DNA of 64,000 nt from Sphingopyxis sp. TUF1 (lineage in GTDB: Bacteria > Pseudomonadota > Alphaproteobacteria > Sphingomonadales > Sphingomonadaceae). Below are positions 5,383 through 50,687 of the stretch, piece after piece. The DNA lies in contig NZ_CP144683.1 of the NCBI RefSeq assembly GCF_036687315.1, positions 2,116,001 to 2,180,000 of the forward strand, written 5' to 3'. Numbering within the stretch: position 1 is the stretch's first letter; every line of letters starts with the position of its first letter. A program made the translations under genes and the position numbers. The notes beneath the pieces were generated by a model. It did no database searches, had not been told where the DNA came from, and was given only the letters and a program-made list of their open reading frames with translations.

Positions 5383-5955
5383 ATGGCCAGCCAAAACGCA
5401 TCGACACCGCCGCCGCCGCCCGCATTTTCGTTCCCGCCAAACGCCGTGCATCTCGTGCGCACCAACCAGCAATTGACGATGCAGCTGTCGCAAATGGCCG
5501 ATCAAAAGGCGTCGATCCTGATGGGCGCGACCTTTGTCGTGTTCACCCTTGCGGTCGGGCAGGCGCGCGCGGGGGCGGGGGCGCTTGCGATGCCGCTGAC
5601 GATCCTCGCGACCTTTGCCTTTCTGTCCGCGCTGCTTGCCGTGTCGGCGGTGCTGCCGCGCGTCGGCAAGGCGCCGCCGATCGTTTACAAGGACGGCAAG
5701 GACCACAGCAATATCCTGTTCTTCGGCCGCTTTGCCCAGATGGAGGAGGATGAGTTCATCGCCGCGGTGAAGGCGCGGCTGCGCACCGAGGAAGATCTCT
5801 ATGAAACGATGCTGCGCGATACCTATCAGAATGGCATCGTGCTGGCGCGGCGCAAATATCGCTATCTTGCTTATGCCTACCGCCTGTTCGTCGTCGGGCT
5901 GACGTTGACTTTCGTGGCGTTCGGGGTGGAGATGGTGGGGATGTGGCGGGGGTGA
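5383..5955 (+). CDS. Membrane protein with Pycsar-effector-like (DUF5706/PycTM) domain
   Basis: A 190-residue membrane protein. After a Pro-rich N terminus (PPPPPAFSF) comes NQQLTMQLSQMADQKASILM, where ADQKASILxG is the hallmark of the PycTM/DUF5706 family. Two transmembrane helices follow (about 45-62 and 68-92), then a soluble stretch with acidic and basic residues, and a C-terminal membrane helix (165-187). Family members paired with a pyrimidine cyclase kill phage-infected cells by membrane damage; here no cyclase is adjacent, only the divergent acp-spt operon and a MATE exporter. Start ATG 5383 follows GGGGGAA. The role is therefore open: it may be a housekeeping relative. Family assignment is moderate to good; function unknown. 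Confidence 0.7.
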   Translation: MASQNASTPPPPPAFSFPPNAVHLVRTNQQLTMQLSQMADQKASILMGATFVVFTLAVGQARAGAGALAMPLTILATFAFLSALLAVSAVLPRVGKAPPIVYKDGKDHSNILFFGRFAQMEEDEFIAAVKARLRTEEDLYETMLRDTYQNGIVLARRKYRYLAYAYRLFVVGLTLTFVAFGVEMVGMWRG

Positions 5956-5964
5956 GATAACTTC

Positions 5965-6055
5965 GTCATTGCGAGGAGCGCAGCGACGAAGCAATCTCCA
6001 GCCATCGTCCCGGGGGCTCGCAAGCTGGAGATTGCTTCGCTGCGCTCGCAATGAC
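5965..6055. repeat. Palindromic repeat, family 1 (copy B)
   Basis: Same unit as 1456-1547 with arms GTCATTGCGAGGAGCGCAGC and the complement ending GCTCGCAATGAC; the variable centre differs. It begins 10 bp after the stop of the PycTM-like gene and could act as a 3' hairpin. The remaining 140 bp before the MATE gene show no further feature I can support. Confidence 0.85.
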
Positions 6056-6194
6056 GCCTACCGATGCGAGCGCGATAAGCGCGATGACGGTTGAGTGGGG
6101 CGCCGTTGCCTTTCGGCCACCCCCTGCCGACAATTGGCGCGCGCGCCAACGGCGCTATTGAACCGTAACAATCGCGCGCTTATCCGGGCCGGCC

Positions 6195-7628
6195 ATGCTG
6201 CACCAGCCGACCCCTTCCACTGCGCATCCGTCGCAGGGTTTTCGCGCCGAATTTCGCGCGACGCTGGCGCTTGCACTGCCGCTCGCGGCGGCGAATCTGC
6301 TTCAGATGCTGGTTCATGCAATTGATGTTATTTTCGTCGCGCGCCTCGGCGACGCGGCGCTTGCGGCCTCCTCGCTCGGCGTAGCGATCTTCGGTCTTCT
6401 TTTGTGGACCGGATCGGGGCTGGTCGGCGCGTCGGCGCCGCTGATCGCTGCCGAGCTTGGTCGGCGCAAACATGCGGTGCGCGAGGTGCGGCGCACGGTG
6501 CGCATGGCGCTGTGGCTAAGCGCGCTGGTGTCGATCCTCTTCATGGGCATTTGCGCCGCTGGCGGGCCAATCATGATCGCGACTGGGCAGCCGCCAGCCA
6601 CCGCAGAGCGCGCCGCAGGGTTCCTGCTGATCCTGATGTGGGCATTGTTCCCGATGATCGCGGCGGCGGTGCTGCGGATATTCGTGTCCGCACTCGGTCG
6701 CGCGGCCATTGCAACCGCGATCACCTTTGGCGCGCTGTTCGTCAACGCGCTCGGCAATTGGGCGTTCGTCTTCGGCCATCTGGGGATGCCCGCGCTTGGC
6801 CTCCACGGCTCGGCGATTTCCAGCGTAATGACCGCGGTGCTGATGTTGATTGCCTATGTCGTCGTCATCCAGACCGACCGGCGGCTCCGGCGCTATCGCC
6901 TGTTCGGCAACTGGTGGCGCAGCGAATGGTCGCGCTTTGGCGACATGGTGCGGATCGGCACGCCGATCAGCCTGACCATTTTGGCCGAAGCGGGCCTGTT
7001 CACCGGCGCTGCCTTTCTGATGGGGCGCATTGGCGAAGCGCAGCTGGCGGGGCACACGATCGCACTTCAGGTTGCGGCGCTTGCCTTTCAGATTCCGTTC
7101 GGCGTTGCGCAGGCGGGAACGATCCGCGTCGGGCTGGCCTATGGCGCGCACGACCATCGCGGCATTGCCCACGCCGGACAGGCGGCCTTGTTGCTCGGGA
7201 TTGGTTTCATGGCCTTTACCGCGCTGCTGATGTGGCTTTTTCCGCGTCTCGTGCTGTCGCTCTACGTCGATGTCGACGATGCGCGTAACGCCGCGCTGAT
7301 GGGTTTTGCGCTGCAGTTCCTGGTCGTGGCGGCGGCCTTTCAACTGTTCGACGGCGCGCAGGCGGTGGCGGCGGGCGTGTTGCGCGGGCTCCAGGATACA
7401 AGGGTGCCGATGATCATCGCGGTCTGCGGATATTGGGCTGCGGGCTATGGTACCGCCATCTACCTTGGTTTCTGGACGCCGCTTGCGGGCGTTGGAGTTT
7501 GGATCGGCCTCGCGGTCGGCCTGATCGTCGTATCGGCGGTGCTGTTGTGCCGCTGGCGGATGCGCGCGCGGCTGGGATTGCTTCCCGCGGCCGATCCCTT
7601 GCCGGACCGCGGTCCGCACCCCTTCTGA
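6195..7628 (+). CDS. MATE family multidrug/cation exporter (NorM-like)
   Basis: A 477-residue inner-membrane protein with about 12 hydrophobic helices and the internal two-fold repeat of MATE transporters: the first half begins at LALALPLAAANLLQM with the loop PLIAAELGRRK, and the second at DMVRIGTPISLTILAEAGLF. These exporters use Na+ or H+ gradients to expel cationic drugs or metabolites. The loop EVRRTVRMALW after helix 3 and the Gly-rich turn LGRAAI are also family-like. The start ATG at 6195 keeps a short cytosolic N terminus. It is followed by the groESL promoter 40 bp downstream, so its transcript must end in a short space; no clear hairpin is seen. Substrate is not predictable. Confidence 0.9.
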   Translation: MLHQPTPSTAHPSQGFRAEFRATLALALPLAAANLLQMLVHAIDVIFVARLGDAALAASSLGVAIFGLLLWTGSGLVGASAPLIAAELGRRKHAVREVRRTVRMALWLSALVSILFMGICAAGGPIMIATGQPPATAERAAGFLLILMWALFPMIAAAVLRIFVSALGRAAIATAITFGALFVNALGNWAFVFGHLGMPALGLHGSAISSVMTAVLMLIAYVVVIQTDRRLRRYRLFGNWWRSEWSRFGDMVRIGTPISLTILAEAGLFTGAAFLMGRIGEAQLAGHTIALQVAALAFQIPFGVAQAGTIRVGLAYGAHDHRGIAHAGQAALLLGIGFMAFTALLMWLFPRLVLSLYVDVDDARNAALMGFALQFLVVAAAFQLFDGAQAVAAGVLRGLQDTRVPMIIAVCGYWAAGYGTAIYLGFWTPLAGVGVWIGLAVGLIVVSAVLLCRWRMRARLGLLPAADPLPDRGPHPF

Positions 7629-23351: not shown

Positions 23352-23442
23352 GTCATTGCGAGGAGCGAAGCGGCGAAGCAATCTCCAGCTATCGGCAAGA
23401 CAGGGCGATAGCTGGAGATTGCTTCGCTGCGCTCGCAATGAC
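23352..23442. repeat. Palindromic repeat, family 1 (copy C)
   Basis: GTCATTGCGAGGAGCGAAGC with the complement ending GCTCGCAATGAC, between tlyA and the DsbD-like gene; inner arms ATCTCCAGCTAT / ATAGCTGGAGAT are also perfectly complementary. Third copy in the window. Confidence 0.87.
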
Positions 23443-35805: not shown

Positions 35806-36582
35806 ATGTCCGAACAACCGAAATTCGATCTGACAGGGCGCGTGGCGCTGGTAACGGGGGCCTCGTCGGGGCTGGGTGCGGGTTTTGCGAAGGCGCTCGC
35901 CGCGGCAGGCGCCAAGGTGGTGCTCGCCGCGCGGCGCGCCGACAAGCTGGCCGAGCAAGTCGCGGCGATCGAGGCGGCGGGCGGGCAGGCGATCGCGGTC
36001 AGCATGGACGTCACCGACGAAGCGTCGACCAAGGCGGCCTATGACGCCGCCGAAGCAGCCTTTGGCACGGTCGACACGATCGTCGCCAACGCCGGGGTAG
36101 CGACCGAAAAAAATGCGATGGGCCTGTCGGTCGAGGATGTCGATTTCCTACTCGCCGCCAATGTCCGCGGCGTGTTCCTGACCGCAAACGAAGGCGCGAA
36201 GCGCCTCGACCAGGCCGGAAGCCGCGAGAAGCAGCATGGCCGCATCGTGCTGATCGGATCGATCACCGCGGAGAAAGTCTTTCCCGCCACCTCGGTCTAT
36301 GGCGCGACCAAGGCGGCGGTGCGCCATCTGGGCAAGGCGCTGGCGCGCGAATGGGCGCGGCGCGGGATTTGCGTCAATGTCATCCAGCCCGGCTATTTCG
36401 CGTCCGAAATGACCTCAGACCTGTTCGAAAGCGAAACCGGCGCGGCGATGGTGAAAAGCTTTCCGCGCCAGCGGATGCGCCCCGCAACCGACCTGCACGC
36501 GCCGTTGCTGTTGCTTTGCTCCGACGCCGCTGCGGGTATCACGGGGAGCGTCTTCACAATCGACGACGGGCAGACCTTGTGA
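35806..36582 (+). CDS. SDR family oxidoreductase
   Basis: A 258-residue classical short-chain dehydrogenase. NAD(P)-binding ALVTGASSGLGAGFAKALAA (residues about 11-30), AARRAD for cofactor selection with Arg residues that favour NADP, VANAGVA, and the catalytic tetrad with S (IGSITAEKVFPATS), Y (VYGATKAAV) and K (TKAAV) around residues 150-169, then VIQPGYFASEM. It ends in the usual ITGSVFTIDDGQT. The stop overlaps the next gene's GTG by 4 bp. With the neighbouring enoyl-CoA hydratase it likely takes part in acyl-CoA or alcohol catabolism. Start ATG 35806 follows AAGGGAGA. Confidence 0.93.
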   Translation: MSEQPKFDLTGRVALVTGASSGLGAGFAKALAAAGAKVVLAARRADKLAEQVAAIEAAGGQAIAVSMDVTDEASTKAAYDAAEAAFGTVDTIVANAGVATEKNAMGLSVEDVDFLLAANVRGVFLTANEGAKRLDQAGSREKQHGRIVLIGSITAEKVFPATSVYGATKAAVRHLGKALAREWARRGICVNVIQPGYFASEMTSDLFESETGAAMVKSFPRQRMRPATDLHAPLLLLCSDAAAGITGSVFTIDDGQTL

Positions 36583-37367
36583 GCGCGCTGCTGATCGAGG
36601 CGCGCGGTGCGGTCGAGATCGCGACACTCAATCGGCCCGAGCGGCTAAACGCGTTGAACGAGGCGCTGGTCGACGAACTCAACGCCTATTTCGGCGGGCT
36701 CGCCGAGCGCCCCGACGTGCGCGTCGTGATCCTGCGCGGTGCGGGACGCGGTTTCTGCGCGGGGCTGGACATTCAGGAGGATCGGTCGGGTGACGAAACG
36801 CCGGTGCTCCGCATGATGCGCACGCAGACGCGGATCGGCAATATCTATCGCAAGATGCGCGCCTGTCCGCAGCCGGTCATCGCGCTGGGGCACGGCGCCG
36901 CGTGCGGCGGCGGGTTGTCGCTGCTGCTCGCGTCGGACGTGCGCTATGCCGCGCCGTCGCTGCGCTGCAACGCCGCTTATATCCGCATCGGGCTGGGCGG
37001 GTGCGATATGGCGTCGAGCTATTTCCTGCCGCGGCTGGTGGGCGCGAGCCTGGCCGCCGAGATGATCCTCACCGGGCGCTTCGTCGACGCCGAGCGGGCG
37101 CTGCGCGCCGGGCTGGTCAGCGAGATTGTCGATGAAGCGGCGCTACTCGACCGCGGGCTGACGCTCGCCGACGAGATGCTGGCGACGAGTCCGCACGGGC
37201 TGCGCCTGTCCAAGCAGGCGCTGAACCTCAACATCGACGCGCCGAGTCTGGAAGCCGCGATGGCGATCGAGGACCGGCAGCAGGTGATCCTGTCGGCGAC
37301 AGAGGATCATAAGGAGGCGTTGTCCGCGTTTCTGGAGAAGCGCGCGCCCGAATATCGCGAGCGGTAA
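36579..37367 (+). CDS. Enoyl-CoA hydratase/isomerase family protein
   Basis: A 262-residue crotonase-fold protein. TLNRPERLNALNEALVDELN, VVILRGAGRGFCAGLDIQED (oxyanion hole from the GxCxG region) and ALGHGAACGGGLSLLLASD (second oxyanion-hole loop) are typical, followed by AAYIRIGLGGCDMASSYFL and LRLSKQALNLN. In the position where hydratases use two glutamates, the second region reads IGLGGCDMASSYFLP, i.e. no clear Glu, so it may be an isomerase or another crotonase. It is translationally coupled (GTGA) to the SDR gene. The substrate is an acyl-CoA of unknown type. Confidence 0.88.
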   Translation: MSALLIEARGAVEIATLNRPERLNALNEALVDELNAYFGGLAERPDVRVVILRGAGRGFCAGLDIQEDRSGDETPVLRMMRTQTRIGNIYRKMRACPQPVIALGHGAACGGGLSLLLASDVRYAAPSLRCNAAYIRIGLGGCDMASSYFLPRLVGASLAAEMILTGRFVDAERALRAGLVSEIVDEAALLDRGLTLADEMLATSPHGLRLSKQALNLNIDAPSLEAAMAIEDRQQVILSATEDHKEALSAFLEKRAPEYRER

Positions 37368-37393
37368 TGCCGCCGCGCGCGCCCCATTGACTC

Positions 37394-37420
37394 GCCATTA
37401 TATTGGCATAGTAAATGCCA
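37394..37420. promoter_or_regulatory. Candidate TetR operator before sulfatase gene 37442
   Basis: GCCATTATATTGG (37394-37406) is identical over 13 nt to part of the 45-bp palindrome at 41461-41505 upstream of the divergent TetR gene. Overlapping it, TGGCAT-N5-ATGCCA (37404-37420) forms an inverted repeat of its own. This lies 22 bp before the start codon, so a bound repressor would block transcription or initiation. Function is inferred. Confidence 0.65.
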
Positions 37421-37441
37421 TATCCCTTGGGGGTGGGAGTG

Positions 37442-39271
37442 ATGGCAGTGCGCAGGAGGACCACTAGGCCGGGTCGCATAGGCGGGTCCCGGCGTGCTGC
37501 CATCATCGCGCTTACCTGTTTGCTGGCGGTTCCATCGGGTCAGGCGCAGCAACGATCCGCACCGCCGCGCCAGCCCAATATCGTCATACTGCTCGCCGAC
37601 GACTGGGGATTTTCGGACGTCGGCGCTTTTGGTTCCGAGATCGCGACGCCGCATATCGATGCGCTGGCGCGCGCGGGGATGCGCTTTTCGAACTTCCACG
37701 TCGCGGGTTCCTGCTCGCCGACGCGCGCGATGCTCCAGACAGGGGTGATGAACCACCGCAATGGGCTCGGCAACATGCCCGAGACGATCCCCGACGAGCA
37801 TCGAGGCAAGCCGGGTTACGACACGGTGATGAACCTGCGCGTCGTGACGATCGCGCAGTTGCTGAAAGCGGCGGGATACCGCACCTACCTCACCGGCAAA
37901 TGGCATCTGGGCAGCGACGCGAAACGCCTGCCGCATGCGCGCGGATACGACCGCGCCTTCAGCCTGGCCGATGCGGGTGCCGACAATTTCGAACAGCGCC
38001 CGATCGAGGGGCTGTACGACAAGGCGAACTGGACCGAGAACGGCCGCCCCGCGACGTTGCCTCGCGATTATTATTCGTCGACCTTCGTCGTCGGGAAGAT
38101 GATCGATTATATCGAAGCGGATCGCCAGAGTGGCAAACCCTTCCTCGCGTCGATCAACTTCCTCGCCAACCATATTCCGGTGCAGGCGCCCGACAGCGAC
38201 ATCGCGCGCTACGCGGCGATGTACAAAGACGGGTGGACGGCGCTGCGCGCAGAGCGCGCGCGGCGTGCGGCGGCGTTGGGCATCGTGCCCGCGGGCACGC
38301 CGATGGTGACGATGCCGACGACGCGCGACTGGCAGAGGCTGGACGCCGACGAGCGCGCGGCGGCGGTGCGCGTGATGCAGGCCTATGGCGGCATGGCGAC
38401 CGCGATGGACCGCGAGATCGGGCGGCTGGTCGCGCACCTCAAAAGGACGGGCGATTACGACAATACGATCTTTGTTTTTCTCTCCGACAATGGCGCCGAG
38501 CCGACCAATCCGTTCGGCTCGCTGCGCAACCGGCTGTTCCTGGCGATGCAATATGACCTTGCGACCGCGAACATCGGGCGGCGGGGCAGTTTTTCGGCGA
38601 TCGGGCCGGGCTGGGCGAGCGCGGCGGCGTCGCCCTTGTCGGGGTATAAGTTCAGCGCAACCGAGGGCGGGCTGCGCGTTCCGCTGATTATCGCCTGGCC
38701 GGGGCATGGCGAGATCAAGGCGGGCGCGATCAGCGACGGGCTGGCGCACGTGACCGACTTGTTGCCGACACTCGCCGAGCTGGCGGCGGTGCCGCTGCAC
38801 AACGGGCAATGGCAGGGCCGCGACGTCGAGCCGGTGACGGGACGGAGCCTGGTGCCGATGCTGAAGGGCGCGACTGCAAGCGTCCATGGCGATGCGCCGC
38901 TCGGCTATGAGCTGTCGGGCAATGCCGCGCTGTTTCGCGGCGATTACAAGCTGGTGCGCAACCTGCCGCCGACCGGTGACGGCAAATGGCGGATGTATAA
39001 TCTCAGAGCCGATCCGGGCGAGGCGCGCGACCTGTCTGCGGCGATGCCCGATCGGTTCGCCTCGATGCTCGCGGACTACCGCGCTTATGCGAAAGCGAAC
39101 GGCGTGCTCGACATCCCCCCGGGCTATACCGCCGACGAACAGATCAACCGTTATGCGTGGGAGCAGCAGGGGCGCAAACGCGCGATCAAGGCTGGGCTGT
39201 GGCTGGGCGGCGGATTGATGGTGCTGGCGTTGCTGGTCTGGGGCTGGCGGCGGCGGCGCGCGCGGGGTTAA
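37442..39271 (+). CDS. Sulfatase (Cys-type), exported and membrane-anchored
   Basis: A 609-residue type I sulfatase. A basic N terminus (VRRRTTRPGRIGGSRR) precedes a signal-like segment (AAIIALTCLLAVPSGQAQ). The catalytic motif is GSCSPTRAMLQTG, C91 (CxPxR) being the cysteine to be converted to formylglycine. Metal ligands are in LLADDWGFSDVG (Asp-Asp), IFVFLSDNGAEP (Asp-Asn), and GKWHLGSD supplies Lys and His. The end AGLWLGGGLMVLALLVWGW plus RRRRARG is a C-terminal membrane anchor. Sulfatases cleave sulfate esters; substrate unknown. ATG 37442 follows GGGTGGGAG and a candidate operator shared with the TetR gene 4 kb away. Monocistronic. Confidence 0.92.
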   Translation: MAVRRRTTRPGRIGGSRRAAIIALTCLLAVPSGQAQQRSAPPRQPNIVILLADDWGFSDVGAFGSEIATPHIDALARAGMRFSNFHVAGSCSPTRAMLQTGVMNHRNGLGNMPETIPDEHRGKPGYDTVMNLRVVTIAQLLKAAGYRTYLTGKWHLGSDAKRLPHARGYDRAFSLADAGADNFEQRPIEGLYDKANWTENGRPATLPRDYYSSTFVVGKMIDYIEADRQSGKPFLASINFLANHIPVQAPDSDIARYAAMYKDGWTALRAERARRAAALGIVPAGTPMVTMPTTRDWQRLDADERAAAVRVMQAYGGMATAMDREIGRLVAHLKRTGDYDNTIFVFLSDNGAEPTNPFGSLRNRLFLAMQYDLATANIGRRGSFSAIGPGWASAAASPLSGYKFSATEGGLRVPLIIAWPGHGEIKAGAISDGLAHVTDLLPTLAELAAVPLHNGQWQGRDVEPVTGRSLVPMLKGATASVHGDAPLGYELSGNAALFRGDYKLVRNLPPTGDGKWRMYNLRADPGEARDLSAAMPDRFASMLADYRAYAKANGVLDIPPGYTADEQINRYAWEQQGRKRAIKAGLWLGGGLMVLALLVWGWRRRRARG

Positions 39272-39551
39272 GGTTTGTGGGGATATTCGGCCGTTTTGCA
39301 CGGCAAGCGCCCGGCACAGCCCCCGCAAACGCCATCCAAAGGTCAGGAAAGGTCAGCCTTGTGCAGCGGCCGATCTGCCATTCCCCCGGGACATGCCGCG
39401 CCCGGCTTCTGCGCCCGCCTAGGGGCGGGAACGACCCATTTTTTGTCCATATATTGAAAGAGCTGAGGTGAAGGCTGGCACAGCGGGGTCATGTAGGACA
39501 GCGTTTTTTTTTATGTCCAGTTTGGGGTGGGCAGCGGACGTTCCTTCATTT

Positions 39552-39634
39552 CCGTTCGTGTCGAGCGAAGTCGAGACACCCATCGACGCCAAGCCTCGCC
39601 CGAGGGGCATCTCGACTTCGCTCGATGCGAACGG
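39552..39634. repeat. Palindromic repeat, family 2 (copy 4)
   Basis: CCGTTCGTGTCGAGCGAAGT with complement ending CTCGATGCGAACGG. Fourth copy in the window. Confidence 0.85.
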
Positions 39635-39690
39635 GTTAGGGGAGGGCGGCAAATGCCGCAATCGTTCGATTCCAGACTCTGCGAGCTACG

Positions 39691-39826
39691 ATCCTCCCTG
39701 TGGCGAAGCCATGGGGAGGGGGACCGCTCGCGCAGCGAGTGGTGGAGGGGCTGCAACGTCGGCGCCATAGCCCCTCCGTCAGCGCTTCGCGCTGCCACCT
39801 CCCCATGGCTCCGCCACAGGGAGGAT
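39691..39826. repeat. Palindromic repeat, family 3 (copy 2)
   Basis: ATCCTCCCTGTGGCGAAGCC and the complement ending CGCCACAGGGAGGAT, with the same core as 32577-32710. It is 57 bp downstream of copy 4 of family 2; the two families occur close together here. Confidence 0.87.
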
Positions 39827-39871
39827 TAGTGGCCGCCTTCGGTCGCAAACCGACATCGCTACGAAACGGGC

Positions 39872-40783
39872 TTAGTCTGTCGGTGCCGGGCGCGCGGGGT
39901 CGATCAGGCGGAAGCCGATATGGTCGGTGCCGAGGCTGCGTTCCTGGAACTGACGCGCGGCGGGGCGATAGCGGGCGCAATAATTGGCGGCGCACAGGAA
40001 ACTGCCGCCCTTGATGACATTGCGCTCGTTGCCCGCCGCGCTCGTCGTCCATTCCCAGACATTGCCGATCAGGTCGTGGACGCCGTGCGCGTCGGCGAGA
40101 AAGCAGGCGACCGGGGCGCGGCCCGTAAAGCCATCGGTGCCGAGGTCGCGGACGGGGAAGCTGCCCTGATAAAAATTGGCGCGCGGTTTGCCGTCCTTGC
40201 CGACGGGGACGTTGCGGTCGGCGCCGCCGCTCGCCGCGGCGAGTTCCCATTGTTCCTCGCTCGGCAACGCCTTGCCCTTCCATCTGGCGAAGGCGAGCGC
40301 ATCTTCATACCCTATCTGCACGACCGGATCGCGGTCGCGGCCGTCGATAGTCGTCGCGGGCCCTGCGGGATGGCGCCACTCGGCGCCGACGACCCAGCGC
40401 CACCAGTTCGGGTTGCCATCGGTCGGCGCGGTGAACACCGCCGATCCGGGGACGAGCATGTCGGGCGGCGCGCCGGGGAGCGGCGGCGGGTCTTGCTCGG
40501 CGAGCGTTTTATAGCCGGTTGCGCGGACGAATTCGGCGAACTCGGCATTTGTGACCTCGTGCGTCGCGATCCAGAAGCCCGCGACGGTGACCTCGCGCGG
40601 CGGGCCTTCTTCGGGCAGATGCGCGTCGGCGCCGATCGTGAACGTCGCGCCGGGGATCCAGGCATAATCCTGTGCGGGCATCGCGGGACATTCGGGGGGC
40701 TTGGCCTCGGCAAGCGGGGCGTCGGCATCGTTGCTGCACGCGGCGAGCATGGCCAGCAGGAGCAGCGCGGCGGCGCGGATCAT
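39872..40783 (-). CDS. Formylglycine-generating enzyme family protein, predicted lipoprotein
   Basis: A 303-residue FGE-sulfatase domain protein. N-terminal signal peptide with lipobox LAAC (C16) in MIRAAALLLLAMLAACSNDA indicates export and lipid anchoring. The domain follows: YAWIPGATFTIGAD, WIATHEVTNAEFAEFVRATG, LPSEEQWELAA, HDLIGNVWEWT and the catalytic end GGSFLCAANYCARYRPAAR, in which C264 and C269 match the active-site cysteine pair of FGE. FGE converts the Cys of CxPxR in sulfatases to formylglycine. Both sulfatases nearby carry that motif. The gene starts inside the stop of the TetR gene (4-bp overlap), so they form an operon. An exported FGE is unusual, since bacterial maturation is expected in the cytosol. 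Confidence 0.88.
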   Translation of the reverse strand: MIRAAALLLLAMLAACSNDADAPLAEAKPPECPAMPAQDYAWIPGATFTIGADAHLPEEGPPREVTVAGFWIATHEVTNAEFAEFVRATGYKTLAEQDPPPLPGAPPDMLVPGSAVFTAPTDGNPNWWRWVVGAEWRHPAGPATTIDGRDRDPVVQIGYEDALAFARWKGKALPSEEQWELAAASGGADRNVPVGKDGKPRANFYQGSFPVRDLGTDGFTGRAPVACFLADAHGVHDLIGNVWEWTTSAAGNERNVIKGGSFLCAANYCARYRPAARQFQERSLGTDHIGFRLIDPARPAPTD

Positions 40784-41400
40784 GCCCGGGTGGTCGCGAC
40801 CAGCGCTTCGATCATATGCGCAACGACGCCGCTCGCATCCTCGACCGACAGCCCCTGATCCTGCCGGATCGCGCGCCAGTTCTGGAACGACAGCGCCGCG
40901 CACAGCGCTTCGGTCAAATATCGGTTGCTCGCGACGTCCGGCGGCAGGAGGCGCAGCACCAGTTCGCGCTCCATCGTTACCACCTGCGCATATTGGCCGA
41001 GCAGATAGGGCGACTGATAGCGTTTGATGTTCGCGGCGAGACGAAAGGGCAGCATCGTTTCAAACACGCGCACCCGCCGCCGCGTCAGTTCGCGCAGATT
41101 GGCGCGCCAGTCGCCATCCGGATAGGGGGCGGTGACAATCGGCCAGATGCGTTCGCCGATGATCCGCGAGATTTCGCGGTACAGGGCGTCCATGTCGTCG
41201 AAATGGCGGAACACGGTGCGCAGGCCGACGCCCGCTTCGTCGGCGACGCGCGCCGCGCTGGGCATCAGGTCGCCCGCCTCGATCAGCGCCATCATCGCCG
41301 CGACGATGCGTTTGTAACTCGACCGGCTGCGCTCGCGTCGCCCGTCGGGACGCGCGTCGGGGCCGCCGTCGGCCACGTCCGCTTGTACTTTCCCCGCCAT
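40780..41400 (-). CDS. TetR family transcriptional regulator
   Basis: A 206-residue protein. The HTH is IVAAMMALIEAGDLMPSAAR followed by VADEAGVGLRTVFRHFDDMDALYREIS (residues about 40-80), the TetR signature with recognition helix around VGLRTVFRHF. The remaining helical domain has EALCAALSFQNWRAI, as in TetR_C members. N-terminal residues are Arg/Asp-rich. The gene is divergent from the operon at 41526 across a 45-bp palindrome and is co-transcribed with the FGE gene, so it likely represses its own operon, the DUF1330-like/sulfatase operon and perhaps the distal sulfatase. The inducer is probably a sulfated compound or its product; unknown. Confidence 0.87.
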   Translation of the reverse strand: MAGKVQADVADGGPDARPDGRRERSRSSYKRIVAAMMALIEAGDLMPSAARVADEAGVGLRTVFRHFDDMDALYREISRIIGERIWPIVTAPYPDGDWRANLRELTRRRVRVFETMLPFRLAANIKRYQSPYLLGQYAQVVTMERELVLRLLPPDVASNRYLTEALCAALSFQNWRAIRQDQGLSVEDASGVVAHMIEALVATTRA

Positions 41401-41460
41401 GCTCTCTCCGCTGGCCCAGCTCGGCGCCCAGGTCAATGCCTCGCACGAAGCCGCTTGCAC

Positions 41461-41505
41461 GCCTTCCAATATAATGACACATATAGTGCCATTATATTGG
41501 AAGGC
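41461..41505. promoter_or_regulatory. 45-bp near-perfect palindrome between TetR and sulfatase operons
   Basis: Arms GCCTTCCAATATAATG (41461-41476) and CATTATATTGGAAGGC (41490-41505) are exactly complementary; the 13-bp centre ACACATATAGTGC is itself near-symmetric. It lies 20 bp before the ATG at 41526 and about 60 bp before the TetR start. A likely operator for the adjacent TetR protein controlling both directions. Confidence 0.82.
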
Positions 41506-41525
41506 AACGACCAAGGCGGGCGGGG

Positions 41526-42185
41526 ATGGGCGATCAGGCGATTTTGCTGACGGCGATATGGGCGGGCGCGTTGCTGCTCTGGTCCGCATTTCTGCTGTTT
41601 TACGATGGCTGGCGGCGTCCGCTGACCGTCCGGGAAATCGACGCGTTTCTTGACGGGCTTGGCCCGCGCATGGCGGAAACAGGCAATGACGTGGCGCGGT
41701 TGCGCGCGTTTCTGGAGGCCGACGACGGGCGCGAATTCGTGATGGTCAACCTCGTCCGCGCGCGGCCGGGGCCGGTCACCGACCCCGCAAGCGGCGCGAC
41801 ACTCGACGGCAGCGAATGGTTGCGGCGATATTCGGACCCCTTTGTGCGCGGGCTGATGCGGCGCGGCGGGCATCCATTGTTCGTCGGGCGCAAGGTCGGC
41901 GGCTATATCGATGCGTGGAATACGCCCGCCGATCCCGGCTGGACGCTGCTCGGCACGATGCGATACCGCAGCCGCCGCGACCTGCTCCGCATGGCAGGCG
42001 ACCCGGCGTTCCGCGCGGTGCATCCGAACAAGCTGCTGGGGATCGAGACGACCTTTTCCTTTCCAACGCAGCGCCAGATTGGCTTTTACGCCAGCCCGCG
42101 CGCGACCGCCGGACTGGCGCTCGCGCTGCTGGCGGCACTGGCGCACATCATGGCATTGACCTTTGGGTGGGGAGCGACGGGGTGA
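41526..42185 (+). CDS. Membrane protein with central DUF1330-like domain
   Basis: A 219-residue protein with a transmembrane helix at each end (ILLTAIWAGALLLWSAFLLF, residues 5-24, and the last 30 residues, ATAGLALALLAALAHIMAL). The middle, EFVMVNLVRARPG, then VGRKVGGYIDAW, LLGTMRYRSRRDLLRMAGDP and AFRAVHPNKLLGIETTFSFP, follows the order of DUF1330 proteins (dimeric alpha-beta barrel). That domain normally is a small cytosolic protein; between two membrane helices it is unusual. The stop overlaps the sulfatase start by 4 bp (GTGA), so the two are coupled. Its role may be to assist the sulfatase; that is inference. Confidence 0.65.
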   Translation: MGDQAILLTAIWAGALLLWSAFLLFYDGWRRPLTVREIDAFLDGLGPRMAETGNDVARLRAFLEADDGREFVMVNLVRARPGPVTDPASGATLDGSEWLRRYSDPFVRGLMRRGGHPLFVGRKVGGYIDAWNTPADPGWTLLGTMRYRSRRDLLRMAGDPAFRAVHPNKLLGIETTFSFPTQRQIGFYASPRATAGLALALLAALAHIMALTFGWGATG

Positions 42186-43813
42186 AGAAACGGTGGATCG
42201 CGCTTTGCGTCCTGACGCTGGCCGCAGCGGGCGGTTATTGGGCCTTCCAGGCGAATAAATACCGGCTTCCGGGGATTTTGCAGGACTGGCGCGACCCGGT
42301 GCAGCCGAACCGGGCGATCGCGTGGCAACAAGGGCCGGCGGCCGCGCCGGAGGGCGAGCGGCCGCCGAACGTCATCCTGATCGTCGCCGACGACCTGGGG
42401 TATAACGACATCAGCCTGAACGGCGGCGGCGTCGCGGGGATCGTCAAGACACCGAATATCGACGCGCTGGCGCGCGAAGGGGTGAATTTCACCACCGCCT
42501 ACGCCGCGAACGCGACCTGCTCGCCGTCGCGCGCGGCGATGATGACGGGGCGTTATCCGACGCGATTTGGCTTTGAATTTACCGCAGTGCCGATCGAGTT
42601 CGCCGAGAATCTGGCGCATGGCGACGGCGTCGGGCCGCACCGCGCGATCTTTCACAAGGAGTTGGTGACCCCGGATATTCCGCCCTATCCCCAGATGGGC
42701 GTCCCCGCGAGCGAGGTGACGATCGCCGAGGCGGTGAAGGCCGCGGGTTATCACACGGTCCATATCGGCAAATGGCATTTGGGCGAGGCACCCGAATTGC
42801 AGCCGCAGGGTCAAGGCTTCGACGAAAGCCTCGCGGTGCTGGCGGGAGCGGGGATGTTCTTGCCCGAGGATGATCCCGATGCGGTCAACGCCAAGCTGCC
42901 GTGGGATCCGATCGACCGTTTCATCTGGGCCAATCTGCGCCACGCGGTAACCTTTAACGGCAGCAAACGCTTCGCGGCGAAAGGGCATATGACCGACTAT
43001 TTCGCCGACGAGGCGATCAAGGCGATCGAGGCGAACCGCAACCGGCCCTTTTTCATGTATCTGGCCTTCACCGCGCCGCACACGCCGCTGCAGGCGACGC
43101 GCGCCGATTATGAAAAGCTCGCGGCGATCAAGGATCACAAGACGCGCGTCTATGGCGCGATGATCGCGCAGATGGACCGGCGAATCGGCGATGTGATGGC
43201 CAAGCTGAAGGAGGCCGGGATCGACGACAATACGCTGGTGATCTTTACGAGCGACAATGGCGGCGCCTGGTACAACGGGATGCCGGGGCTGAACGCGCCG
43301 TTCCGCGGGTGGAAGGCGACCTTTTTCGAGGGCGGCATCCGCGCGCCCTTGTTCATGCGCTGGCCCGCGCGCATCGCGCCGGGGACCGCGCGCGCCGACG
43401 TGACCGGGCATCTCGACATTTTTGCGACGATTGCGGCGGCGGCGGGCGCGGCGCTGCCCGAAGGGCGGACGATCGACAGCGAGGATATATTGGCCGGGCC
43501 CGCCACGCGGCCGGCGATCTTCTGGCGCTCGGGCGATTATCGCGCGGTGCGTGCGGGCGACTGGAAATTGCAGGTGACGAAGCGGCCCGAAAAGGCGCGC
43601 CTCTATAATCTCGCCGTCGATCCGACCGAGCAGACCGACCTGTCGGCGCGCGAGCCCGCCCGCGTCGCCGAGCTTCGCGCGATGATCGCGGCGCAGAACA
43701 AGGACATGGCCAGGCCGATCTGGCCGGGGCTGATCGAAGGGCCGGTACGCATCGACGTGCCGCTGAACGCGCCGTGGCAGGGCGGGCAGGATTATATCTA
43801 TTGGACCAATTGA
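42182..43813 (+). CDS. Sulfatase (Cys-type), exported
   Basis: A 543-residue sulfatase with an N-terminal membrane anchor or signal segment (KKRWIALCVLTLAAAGGYWA). The active-site motif is NATCSPSRAAMMTG with C113 (CxPxR) for formylglycine. Others are NVILIVADDLGYNDI (two metal Asp), GKWHLGEAPE, TAPHTPLQ and IFTSDNGGAWYN (Asp-Asn). A second half contains LYNLAVDPTEQTDL, typical of arylsulfatase C-terminal domains. GTG start overlaps the DUF1330-like gene. It is a paralogue of the 37442 sulfatase but differs in the N-terminal anchor and lacks the C-terminal one. Substrate unknown. Confidence 0.93.
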   Translation: MKKRWIALCVLTLAAAGGYWAFQANKYRLPGILQDWRDPVQPNRAIAWQQGPAAAPEGERPPNVILIVADDLGYNDISLNGGGVAGIVKTPNIDALAREGVNFTTAYAANATCSPSRAAMMTGRYPTRFGFEFTAVPIEFAENLAHGDGVGPHRAIFHKELVTPDIPPYPQMGVPASEVTIAEAVKAAGYHTVHIGKWHLGEAPELQPQGQGFDESLAVLAGAGMFLPEDDPDAVNAKLPWDPIDRFIWANLRHAVTFNGSKRFAAKGHMTDYFADEAIKAIEANRNRPFFMYLAFTAPHTPLQATRADYEKLAAIKDHKTRVYGAMIAQMDRRIGDVMAKLKEAGIDDNTLVIFTSDNGGAWYNGMPGLNAPFRGWKATFFEGGIRAPLFMRWPARIAPGTARADVTGHLDIFATIAAAAGAALPEGRTIDSEDILAGPATRPAIFWRSGDYRAVRAGDWKLQVTKRPEKARLYNLAVDPTEQTDLSAREPARVAELRAMIAAQNKDMARPIWPGLIEGPVRIDVPLNAPWQGGQDYIYWTN

Positions 43814-43937
43814 TTGCTGCTAGCCGCCTGGCGTTGCGTCTGTGGCGGTATAGGATCGGAGCAAAAGACACCGCGAGGTAATTGGCGGCGGCGCGTGGTT
43901 GTGGCAGGGGTCTGCCGACCTTGCCCACGGAGAGATC

Positions 43938-47539: not shown

Positions 47540-49348
47540 TTAGAAGCGAAGCGACAGGGACACCGCGCCCGACACGTCGCTGTGTCCGCTCTCCGCCTCG
47601 CGTCCGCGGAACGAGAAGCTGGCGGCGACGCGCTCGCCAATCAGCCCCGAGACACCGACGCCATAGGCCAGCGCGCCGTCCCCGCCCGACAGCGGCTCGC
47701 TGATATACCAGACGGGCGCCCCGCTCGGCAGGATCGAGATAAGGTGCGACCCGCTGAGCGCATTGGCCGAATAGCCGATCTCCGCCCACGGCATGAAGCC
47801 GTCAATCGCCGACGTCGGTGTGACGCGAAGGCCGGCGCCGAGTTCGAGCGTTTCGAGCGTCTGGTCACCAAAGCGGACCTGCGACGAACGGTCGCCTGCT
47901 TCGGCATAACCGTCGACGGTAACGCGGTCGTAGCGTGCGGTCGCAAACGGGCTGACCTGAATCCCGCCCGCCGCAATATGATAGGCGGCGCGCGCTTCGA
48001 TCGATCCGAAATTGCCCTCCGTCTGTCCGCTTTCGTAGCGCACCGCGGGGCCGAGCACGATCCGGCGCGTGACATCGTCGAAATCGCTTTTGCCGATCGA
48101 GGCGACGAGCGAAGCGGTGACATGCGGGCTGTCATATCCCGCGAAGGCGGTGGCGGCATAGCTGTCGAAGCGCACCGACCCGCTGTCCTCGGCGAAATCG
48201 CCATCGCCGCCGGTCCACGATCCATAGACGCCCGCGCGCAGCCCCGACGGCAGCGCCGTCGCGAACCCCAGCTGGAGCCCGGCGGCGGTCGACCGACCTT
48301 CGTCGGCAATGGCGAAGGCGGGCAGGGTCGCCCCGCTCGCCTTGACGCCGCCGATGAGGCGGACGCCGATGCCCGCGTCGCGGTCCATCTCCTGCCGCGC
48401 GAGCTCGCCGTCGGCACGGTTCGCCGAACGGACCATATAGGGAAGCTGCGCAATCTGCCCCGGCGCGCGAAGCATGGCGAGCGTCAGGTCGCCCTCGATT
48501 TCGTGCACCACGCCGGTGAAATGAATGCCGTCGGCGTAAAGATAGGTGCGGTTCGCATCGGGGGTGACATAGTTTTCGGGCAAGCAGATAAACGATTCGA
48601 GCGCCGAGCCGCGGCACGCCCGGCCGGTCGTGTTGATAATGCCGAACTCCGACGGATTGGCTTCGATTTCGCCGATCAACCCGGCGACGTCGACATAAAG
48701 GACGTTGAGACCGCGCGATGCGAGTGCGGCGTCATAGCGGTCGTTATAATGATCGAACTTCGGCACGCTCGTGGTCACGACGGTACCCGCGCCTGCATCG
48801 ATCAAAAGGCCGACCTGATCGGCCAGCCCTTCGGCGGCGACGCGCAACACTTCGAGGTCGGCGGGCGTGTCTGCGGGGCCGTTGAACTTGGTCGAGAACA
48901 CATCGTTGCCGCCGCCCTGGATGATGACGAGGCTGTCCTTGGAGAGGCTGGCGCCGCTGCCCAGAAAATCCGCCACCTGTTCGGTGATCGGGCGGCGCGA
49001 CAGGTCGCCCGGCGCGTCGGGGCGCTGGAGCGCGACGCGCGCGCCGCCCTCGGCATAGTTGGTCCCGCCGACGGCCGAGGGCGTCAGGTCGAGACCCAGG
49101 CCCTGCGCAACGATTTCGACCCACACGGCATCGGGATTGGTCGTGAAACTGCCCGCGCCTGCAGGCGCCTTGTCGGCATAGTTTCCGCCGTCGGAGATGC
49201 TGTCGCCGAAGACGACGATCTGGTCATAACCCTCTTGAGCGTGGGACAATGGCGCCAGCGGGCCGCAAGTGCCCGCGACAAGAAGGGCGGCGCAAGCCAC
49301 GCGCGAAAGAGCCCGCGCTTTGGCGCGGTGTGGGGGATGGGGGAACAC
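47540..49348 (-). CDS. Autotransporter esterase/lipase (GDSL type)
   Basis: A 602-residue secreted protein. A long N-terminal signal segment (ALSRVACAALLVAGTCGPLA) precedes an SGNH hydrolase domain: VVFGDSISDGGNYADKAP with nucleophile S50, AVGGTNYAEGGARVA (Gly), VIIQGGGNDVFST (Asn) and late YLYADGIHFTG (Asp-His). Residues about 330-602 form the autotransporter beta-barrel, ending with the aromatic SLSLRF that is the outer-membrane sorting signal. Similar proteins (EstA/EstP) hydrolyse short acyl esters at the cell surface. Start is GTG 49348, with AGGAG 7 bp upstream; a longer ORF upstream is antisense overlap. Divergent from the LytS gene. Confidence 0.92.
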   Translation of the reverse strand: MFPHPPHRAKARALSRVACAALLVAGTCGPLAPLSHAQEGYDQIVVFGDSISDGGNYADKAPAGAGSFTTNPDAVWVEIVAQGLGLDLTPSAVGGTNYAEGGARVALQRPDAPGDLSRRPITEQVADFLGSGASLSKDSLVIIQGGGNDVFSTKFNGPADTPADLEVLRVAAEGLADQVGLLIDAGAGTVVTTSVPKFDHYNDRYDAALASRGLNVLYVDVAGLIGEIEANPSEFGIINTTGRACRGSALESFICLPENYVTPDANRTYLYADGIHFTGVVHEIEGDLTLAMLRAPGQIAQLPYMVRSANRADGELARQEMDRDAGIGVRLIGGVKASGATLPAFAIADEGRSTAAGLQLGFATALPSGLRAGVYGSWTGGDGDFAEDSGSVRFDSYAATAFAGYDSPHVTASLVASIGKSDFDDVTRRIVLGPAVRYESGQTEGNFGSIEARAAYHIAAGGIQVSPFATARYDRVTVDGYAEAGDRSSQVRFGDQTLETLELGAGLRVTPTSAIDGFMPWAEIGYSANALSGSHLISILPSGAPVWYISEPLSGGDGALAYGVGVSGLIGERVAASFSFRGREAESGHSDVSGAVSLSLRF

Positions 49349-49571
49349 ACTAAACTCCTGAAAAAAATCGAATTGCGGCGATGCGCCGCGGGCCGTTGCT
49401 GGGCGCAGGCCGTGACGGTCGCGCGAACGGGGCGATACGAATTGTGTCGTTGCGTAACTGCACGCGGGTATCGGCGGCAAAAGCGCCGCGCGGCCCGGCG
49501 AACGTTCGTTTGGTGCCGTCAAACGTCCGTGCCTTCGCCCGCGAGGCGCGGTAAGAGGAGGTGTGAACGAG

Positions 49572-50687
49572 ATGCAAACTTCTACCGGCTCTGCCTGGCT
49601 TCCCGACGCCGCCGGCCCCGCTGATGCTGACGCTGCCGCGCCGTCGCGGCGCCGCAATGTCACGTCACGGCAGATGCTGGTGACGGCGACCCTGTTTTTG
49701 TGGGCGGCCAATTTCTTTATCTTCACGATGATTTCGGTGCTCGACCGGCCCGATCGCTGGATCGCCAGCCTGCTGCCGCGGCTCGTGCTGACGATCATCG
49801 GCATCGGCTTTTGCTATGTCTTGCATCTCGTACTGCGCGAGGCGGGCAAAAAGGGTTTTCGCGTACAGATAATCGCCGCGATCGTCGCGACGCCGATCGT
49901 CGCCGACCTGTACGGGTGGTGCAATGCACTGGCCGCCGCGATGATCTATGGCCAGATTCCGGAGCTTCCGCTGGGCGAAATGATCTTCCAGCTGTCGCTG
50001 CACCTCTGGTTCTTTGCCAGCTGGATCGGCTTTTACCTGGCGATCTCATACAGCATGCGGTTGCGCCGACAGGAAAAGCGCGAAGCGACGACGCGGTTTC
50101 TGGCGCAGGCCGCGCAGCTTCAGGCGCTCCACTATCAGATCAATCCGCATTTCCTGTTCAATACGCTCAACGCAATTTCTTCGCTGGTCGTCGATGGACG
50201 CAATGCCGAGGCGGAGGCGATGGTGCAGCGATTGTCGGAATTTTTCCGCCTGACGCTGGAACTCGATCCCCGGCAGGATGTCTCGCTCGAACGCGAACTG
50301 GCGCTGCAGACGGCGTATCTCGACATCGAGAAGGTCCGGTTTCCCGACATGACGATCTGGATCGATGTTGCCGAAGACGTTCGCGCCGCCGCGGTCCCTG
50401 GCCTGATCCTGCAACCACTGGTCGAAAATGCGGTGAAGCATGGGGTGGCGCGGAATCCGGGGCCGTCGCACATCGCAATTTCGGCGCATCGCGCCGATGA
50501 CCATATCGAAGTCGAAATCGCCAACCGTGCGTCGGCGCAGACGAGCGAGGGTAGTGGCATCGGCCTGCGCAACGTGCGCGAGCGGCTGGTCGCGCGCTTC
50601 GGCAACCTGGCGTCGCTGACCGCGGGTTTCACCAGCCCGAAACGCTATAGTGCGCGGCTCGTGATGCCGCTGGTGTCCGCCGCATGA
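49572..50687 (+). CDS. LytS-type sensor histidine kinase
   Basis: A 371-residue sensor with four predicted transmembrane helices (about 36-58, 68-88, 98-113 and 138-160) followed by the His_kinase domain, with LQALHYQINPHFLFNTLNAI (H193 as phospho-acceptor) and VPGLILQPLVENAVKHGV (N-box) then GSGIGLRNVRERL (G-box). It phosphorylates the LytTR regulator directly downstream, with which it overlaps by 4 bp (ATGA). ATG 49572 was chosen over GTG 49563 because AGGAG at 49556-49560 is a better distance. The signal is unknown; no N-terminal sensor domain outside the membrane is seen, so membrane state or a ligand in the helices is likely. Confidence 0.9.
   Translation: MQTSTGSAWLPDAAGPADADAAAPSRRRNVTSRQMLVTATLFLWAANFFIFTMISVLDRPDRWIASLLPRLVLTIIGIGFCYVLHLVLREAGKKGFRVQIIAAIVATPIVADLYGWCNALAAAMIYGQIPELPLGEMIFQLSLHLWFFASWIGFYLAISYSMRLRRQEKREATTRFLAQAAQLQALHYQINPHFLFNTLNAISSLVVDGRNAEAEAMVQRLSEFFRLTLELDPRQDVSLERELALQTAYLDIEKVRFPDMTIWIDVAEDVRAAAVPGLILQPLVENAVKHGVARNPGPSHIAISAHRADDHIEVEIANRASAQTSEGSGIGLRNVRERLVARFGNLASLTAGFTSPKRYSARLVMPLVSAA

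Follow-up and report, generated by a model that had tools for sequence, protein, structure and literature searches.

A predicted TetR operator shared by two sulfatase units and a formylglycine-generating enzyme gene in Sphingopyxis

How could two sulfatases and the enzyme predicted to mature them be placed under common control, when their genes lie in three separate units? This question is raised by a locus in Sphingopyxis sp. TUF1, which we analysed within a stretch of 64,000 nucleotides (nt) of the genome (contig NZ_CP144683.1, positions 2,116,001 to 2,180,000); this stretch is referred to as the window, and its own numbering is used here. The locus encodes sulfatases A and B, a formylglycine-generating enzyme (FGE), a TetR-family regulator and a DUF1330-like protein. 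Our results support the presence of one operator-like signal, TGRCA-N7-TGYCA, which links both sulfatase units and the tetR-FGE unit and is conserved in the genus and beyond. We propose that the local TetR protein acts as a repressor on this signal at both places where it stands in the locus, controlling both sulfatases and FGE. From sequence comparison, we give this reading a probability of about 0.8.

The original prediction described the locus as a set of regulator, maturase and two sulfatases, and the gene content bears this out. These four proteins belong to the expected families (Table 1), both sulfatases carry the CxPxR signature (CSPTR at residue 91 of A, CSPSR at residue 113 of B), and FGE has the catalytic-loop cysteine pair in the motif GGSFLCAANYC, which we take to be the mark of a true FGE. 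Sulfatases A and B are the only strong PF00884 matches in the 3.47-Mb genome, a third match being weak (42.6 bits, cut-off 25), and the FGE of the cluster is the sole genome match at E<=1e-30. The reading frames of FGE and tetR overlap by 4 nt, as do those of the DUF1330-like gene and sulfatase B. The prediction had also placed a near-perfect 45-bp palindrome between these two operons and an exact 13-nt piece of it, GCCATTATATTGG, before the other sulfatase, overlapped by a further inverted repeat. All three are present, and the overlapping repeat, TGGCATAGTAAATGCCA, is the conserved part. In eight first-order Markov windows of the same composition, the best palindromes reached 15-17 of 22 pairs (odd-centred only).

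Table 1 Features of the sulfatase locus in the window and of two related regions (window positions unless a locus is named; aa, amino acids).
Feature	Position	Strand	Description
SDR gene	35806-36582		left of enoyl-CoA hydratase gene
Enoyl-CoA hydratase gene	36579-37367		left of sulfatase A
TTGACT	37387-37392	+	possible -35 of sulfatase A (tentative)
13-mer GCCATTATATTGG	37394-37406 and 41488-41500		exact at both intergenic places
Sulfatase A operator (predicted)	37404-37420	+	TGGCATAGTAAATGCCA
TAGTAA	37409-37414		possible -10 of sulfatase A; 16-nt spacer; inside operator
Sulfatase A	37442-39271	+	609 aa, type I; PF00884 E 1.3e-57
FGE	39872-40783	-	303 aa; PF03781 E 5.2e-61
tetR	40780-41400	-	206 aa, TetR-family regulator; PF00440 25.1 bits
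Palindrome	41461-41505		45 nt, 19/22 pairs; between tetR-FGE and DUF1330-like/sulfatase B
tetR/DUF1330-like operator core (predicted)	41475-41491		TGACACATATAGTGCCA; between both genes
DUF1330-like gene	41526-42185	+	hydrophobic stretch at both ends; no Pfam family
Sulfatase B	42182-43813	+	543 aa, type I; PF00884 E 1.8e-58
Haloalkane dehalogenase region	L125 9129-10918		related cluster
Unlinked sulfatase operon of G228	L156 880-5926		divergent from glutathione-transferase-like gene, site between

The signal TGRCA-N7-TGYCA (hereafter the strict site, with A/T-rich flanks) was derived by footprinting across the sequences of relatives; alignment of the core replaced an automated palindrome search, which chose different palindromes in most relatives. 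The two predicted operators of the window align on it without a gap. Upstream of tetR, where the core shared by the relatives resembles AATATAATGACACATATAGTGYCATAA, a strict site is found in 45 of 47 loci with 37 distinct sequences, a count that includes the window's own locus and probably some genomes entered twice. The two misses are L057, in which half of the site is gone and the available stretch holds no sulfatase B, and L060, whose sequence begins within tetR; in L024 and L052 the strict sites are present farther from tetR. For sulfatase A the upstream consensus is ATATTGRCATA...TGYCA. A strict site occurs there in all 15 named loci that can be read (n=17, of which L060 and L064 do not reach this region), as well as in all 30 of the loci L075-L104; these are the top 30 of 76 matches in the genus and include the window's own locus as L075. 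In genome G074 sulfatase A and tetR lie on different contigs, and a site heads a sulfatase A operon composed of metallo-hydrolase, glutathione-transferase-like and sulfatase A genes. G011 has a second site at the head of a GST-FGE unit and no strict site before sulfatase A.

The signal is also nearly restricted to these genes. The 27 loci from which the motif was partly derived span 320,571 bases and contain 45 strict sites, versus 2.5 per Mb in a first-order Markov simulation. The window and 44 loci together contain 72 strict sites, and 71 of them are followed within 400 nt, in the right direction, by the start of tetR or another gene of the set; the lone exception is at window position 48118 within the reading frame 47540-49804. 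Since the gene set was partly drawn up after viewing the loci, which were not deduplicated, this count shows position, i.e. promoters and not coding DNA, better than it shows gene identity. The longer motif WTGRCA-N7-TGYCAW occurs at seven places in the window's own genome (reversed control, one): the two operators described here, four places within reading frames and one before an ArsR-like gene.

Outside Sphingopyxis, relatives of TetR were found across the family (33 of 199 genomes, four of these being Sphingopyxis), and 16 of the 29 non-Sphingopyxis loci, picked by score and genus spread, were examined. Twelve of these, from ten genera, have sulfatases nearby and together contain 23 strict sites, at least one each; no site occurs in 62 kb of the remaining four, which have a TetR relative and lack sulfatases. 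The motif WWTGRCA-N7-TGYCAWW was found at 30 places in eight non-Sphingopyxis genomes (control, 0), 12 of them within the examined clusters.

The history of the window itself is consistent with a binding specificity shared between lineages. The segment 40760-42230, holding tetR, the operator and the DUF1330-like gene, is closest to genome G059 (70-91% per 150-nt block), and the flanks 39850-40750 and 42251-43820 are closest to G001/G067 (85-97% per 150-nt block), which do not have the DUF1330-like gene. The window's tetR is approximately 68% identical to that of the resident lineage. The tetR and operator segment thus appears to have been replaced by exchange from another Sphingopyxis lineage, loss in the other one being the alternative. 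G001 (L077) and G067 (L076) have a sulfatase A operator core identical to that of the window, and a foreign tetR beside an unchanged sulfatase A operator fits with both regulators recognising the same site.

The product of tetR matches the TetR_N helix-turn-helix domain, its structure model is all-helical (pLDDT 85; helices 21-42, 50-57 and 61-68), and the motif RTVFR(H/Q)FDDMD is, apart from the H/Q position, invariant across 40 aligned sequences. Within 80 Sphingopyxis genomes, TetR matches occur in 77 (E<=1e-20) and sulfatase A matches in 76 (E<=1e-150), with G014 and G044 (68% complete) having neither.

Several observations weigh against the proposed repressor and its operators. The TetR_N score of 25.1 bits is barely above the Pfam cut-off of 24, and the top matches of the fold search in the PDB, which are TetR proteins, are weak (best E 1e-3). 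The genes do not always occur together: G065 (81% complete) has a sulfatase A and no tetR match, and G058 and G075 have tetR and no sulfatase A match. Strict sites are also missing where they would be expected: in the 400 nt ahead of tetR in L130-L135, upstream of sulfatase A in L105 and L124, upstream of its GSTb-headed operon in L128, and ahead of the sulfatase A relative in L135. From the 18 motif places outside the clusters of other genera, five were inspected, of which just one heads a sulfatase operon; the other four head no recognisable gene of the set. Finally, scanning for consensus promoters gave none at the two operator sites, and just seven of the 15 named loci have the TTGACT box, which is absent from L108 as well.

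Of 28 genus loci, the window's own among them, 27 have this TTGACT box 17 nt ahead of the sulfatase A motif, and L110-L114 show it at the same spacing. In many relatives the operator may therefore cover the -10 region, an arrangement that we put forward tentatively because of the negative scan and the seven of 15 named loci.

We propose the following mechanism. A TetR dimer would bind TGRCA-N7-TGYCA at two places. From the site between tetR and the DUF1330-like gene it would silence both the tetR-FGE and the DUF1330-like/sulfatase B transcripts, and from the second site, at the sulfatase A promoter, it would silence sulfatase A. Binding of a sulfated compound, or of its desulfated product, to TetR would then let all three transcripts rise together, supplying two exported sulfatases along with the enzyme that makes their catalytic formylglycine. 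The TetR fold search in the PDB gave no hint of a ligand.

An unlikely alternative to this repressor is that TetR acts as an activator, or together with a global sulfur-starvation control, in which case the sites would not be repressor sites. Sulfatases of other bacteria are often governed by the sulfur supply, which speaks for such a control, as does the fact that the promoter elements are not firmly placed. Against an activator, eight of the nine sulfatase A distances available put the site centre 30-42 nt ahead of the extrapolated start (149 nt in L108), which is close for an activator, and a divergent tetR with an operator between the genes is the usual layout of an autorepressor.

It is more improbable that some other, unlinked regulator recognises the palindrome and that the adjacent tetR is incidental. 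The four loci of other genera with a TetR relative and no site would agree with this, as would the six sulfatase loci L130-L135 without a strict site near tetR, but those four loci are also without sulfatases. The joint absence of tetR and sulfatase A from two genomes, the presence of the site at tetR's own promoter in nearly every locus and the inclusion of both tetR and site in the apparently exchanged segment of the window likewise argue against an incidental tetR.

That the 13-mer itself is the regulator's site is very improbable. Exact copies do stand in both intergenic places, and the genome search proposed with the original prediction returned 15 matches to GCCATTATATTGG at up to one mismatch, three of them exact (reversed control, 0). 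Three of the 15 are in the window, at 37394, at 41488 and, on the other strand, at 41466. The 12 further ones, one exact, speak against the 13-mer, as all are within mechanically called reading frames. The register of the 13-mer differs between the two operators: near tetR it spans the right half of the operator and the outer arm, whereas before sulfatase A its end falls within the left half-site and only its final three bases overlap the operator core. Its outer parts also vary in relatives, the GCCATT half differing among them (e.g. GGCGATATATTGG in L078). The 13-mer was rejected as operator after footprinting. The idea of shared operator-like DNA thus survives in TGRCA-N7-TGYCA, which links the units, and not in the 13-mer from which it had started. 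Nor does the distance of 22 bp given for the 13-mer hold, as it lies 35 nt from the likely sulfatase A start (the ATG at 37442, favoured by the preceding GGGGGTGGGAG and by the relatives) and no start codon seen in frame fits 22.

Equally hard to credit is the palindrome as an RNA hairpin or terminator without a regulator. It could fold as RNA, and a hairpin of similar quality lies at 23378-23422, but no terminator-like site was found at the palindrome, its central A/T-rich part is conserved in relatives and its outer arms are variable, and the same motif stands at other promoters. The hairpin at 23378-23422, GC-rich (GCAATCTCCAGCTATCG...CGATAGCTGGAGATTGC) and with 19 of 22 pairs, is the only other palindrome of equal quality in the window and is perhaps a terminator.

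The repressor and operators proposed here would form a local TetR regulon of a known and ordinary kind, and this one is not described in the literature searched: titles and abstract openings of the papers listed, with most subscription papers outside reach, gave no TetR-controlled sulfatase/FGE regulon, and the available portions of PMC9736018, PMC3920027 and PMC13413282 give no description of it. The FabR, FadP, LiuQ, PsrA and RutR regulons (PMC5343134) likewise combine TetR regulators, cross-genome reconstruction of sites and metabolic targets; they differ in that no sulfatase target is named in the available portions and no word beginning 'sulfatase' occurs in the main text. The SlfR-slfCHSL system of Psychrobacter (PMC10779009) is, in the accessible part of that source, also a sulfatase operon under a dedicated repressor, but it has an AraC/XylS regulator, an alkyl sulfatase and, as described, no formylglycine maturase. 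The bile-salt cluster of Caenibius tardaugens (PMC12882949) shares with our locus a sphingomonad TetR gene, intergenic palindromes and catabolic neighbours. The palindromes proposed there for the TetR gene, ATAGGGCCATTG and GCATGCGGGATGC, are different, and the main text is without a word beginning 'sulfatase', although one occurrence of 'arylsulfatase' is counted for the paper.

The proposed regulon offers a testable regulator-operator pair for sulfatases in sphingomonads, a group known for the breakdown of pollutants, and its motif can be used to search for more genes that deal with sulfated compounds. It has already pointed to one unlinked sulfatase operon. In genome G228, whose tetR cluster shows sulfatase B only, a site (C6) is flanked on one side by a glutathione-transferase-like gene and on the other by an operon that contains a PF00884 sulfatase (E 4.8e-60) and a DJ-1/PfpI gene. 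Sites in other genera also precede genes for a TonB receptor, DUF1330 proteins, glutathione-transferase-like proteins, haloalkane dehalogenases and pairs of a CurA-like reductase and a metallo-hydrolase, the best solved relative of the latter being named 'Arysulfatase' (8gyg).

Of the leads from this analysis, the dehalogenases in the clusters of other genera are the most interesting. Haloalkane dehalogenase genes are present in seven of the 12 non-Sphingopyxis clusters, from six genera. In L125, L126 and L127 a site lies approximately 35 nt before the dehalogenase gene; in L130, L132 and L138 the gene comes after a site-bearing CurA-like gene and is cut by the end of the stretch in L130 and L138; and in L128 it (5441-6337) follows FGE. 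Two of the predicted dehalogenases exceed the cut-off of NCBIfam NF002043 (265 bits), i.e. L125:9129-10019 with 431 bits and L132:1222-2166 with 308 bits; the remaining ones were found by similarity, being 55-99% identical to the L125 or L132 protein. These clusters suggest a natural setting for such dehalogenases beside sulfatases, and this bears on their natural substrates.

One extension, which we consider doubtful, is that the operator marks a catabolic regulon of Sphingomonadaceae for halogenated organosulfates, for instance the chlorosulfolipids of freshwater golden algae. The TonB receptor would import the compound, the sulfatases would strip its sulfate, and the haloalkane dehalogenases, perhaps with the glutathione-transferase-like proteins, would strip its halogens; its chain would be processed by the CurA-like reductase together with the SDR, enoyl-CoA hydratase and acyl-CoA synthetase encoded nearby. 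In Sphingopyxis, and in the window with it, only the desulfation module would remain under operator control. For Sphingopyxis such a substrate is disfavoured, because no dehalogenase is found in the clusters of 27 Sphingopyxis-type loci and the window, and because the window's genome carries, at other places, two haloalkane dehalogenase genes that exceed the cut-off, both without such an operator. According to the available part of PMC13413282, freshwater chrysophytes were the source from which chlorosulfolipids were first described, and these lipids have been detected in the sea; the main text does not contain the string 'degrad', and titles and abstract openings of the papers listed on these lipids give no report of their bacterial breakdown.

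Within the locus, the DUF1330-like protein had been labelled DUF1330 outright, and at most a distant relationship is indicated. It matches no Pfam family at E<=10, the PF07045 model included, and it aligns with two related proteins (hhalign 95.8%, E 7.4e-9, from shallow profiles), one of which, L130:4126-4539 of a related cluster, matches PF07045. It has 1773 homologues, and the 120 listed are without a Pfam domain and, where a source name is given, are called 'hypothetical protein'; its structure model is of low confidence (pLDDT 53) and too poor for use.

The FGE of the cluster type (>=67% identity) is found, irrespective of position, in 44 of 80 Sphingopyxis genomes, three times as fragments. 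A more distant FGE, 45-50% identical, occurs in 33 of the 36 genomes without the cluster type versus six of the 44 with it, kinship being ignored, and the two such paralogues inspected (L054, L055) keep the cysteine pair. On visual inspection, the N terminus of the window's FGE (40690-40783) contains a lipobox-like LLAMLAAC, which would mean that sulfatases mature outside the cytoplasm.

The sulfatases share the common type I family and the CxPxR motif with their solved relatives, which are a Pseudomonas arylsulfatase for A (1hdh, E 2e-120) and, as the best solved matches, an S1_19 (9hh3) and a carrageenan (6prm) sulfatase for B. Sulfatase B has a hydrophobic stretch at its N terminus. The C terminus of sulfatase A shows GG, a hydrophobic stretch and RRRR in all five sequences inspected (window 39180-39271, L051, L058, L062 and L065), and this tail looks like a membrane or sorting tail. 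The intergenic stretch between sulfatase A and FGE (window 39540-39840) contains repeat-like blocks, e.g. GATCCTCCCTGTGGCGAAGCCATGGGGAGG and its reverse.

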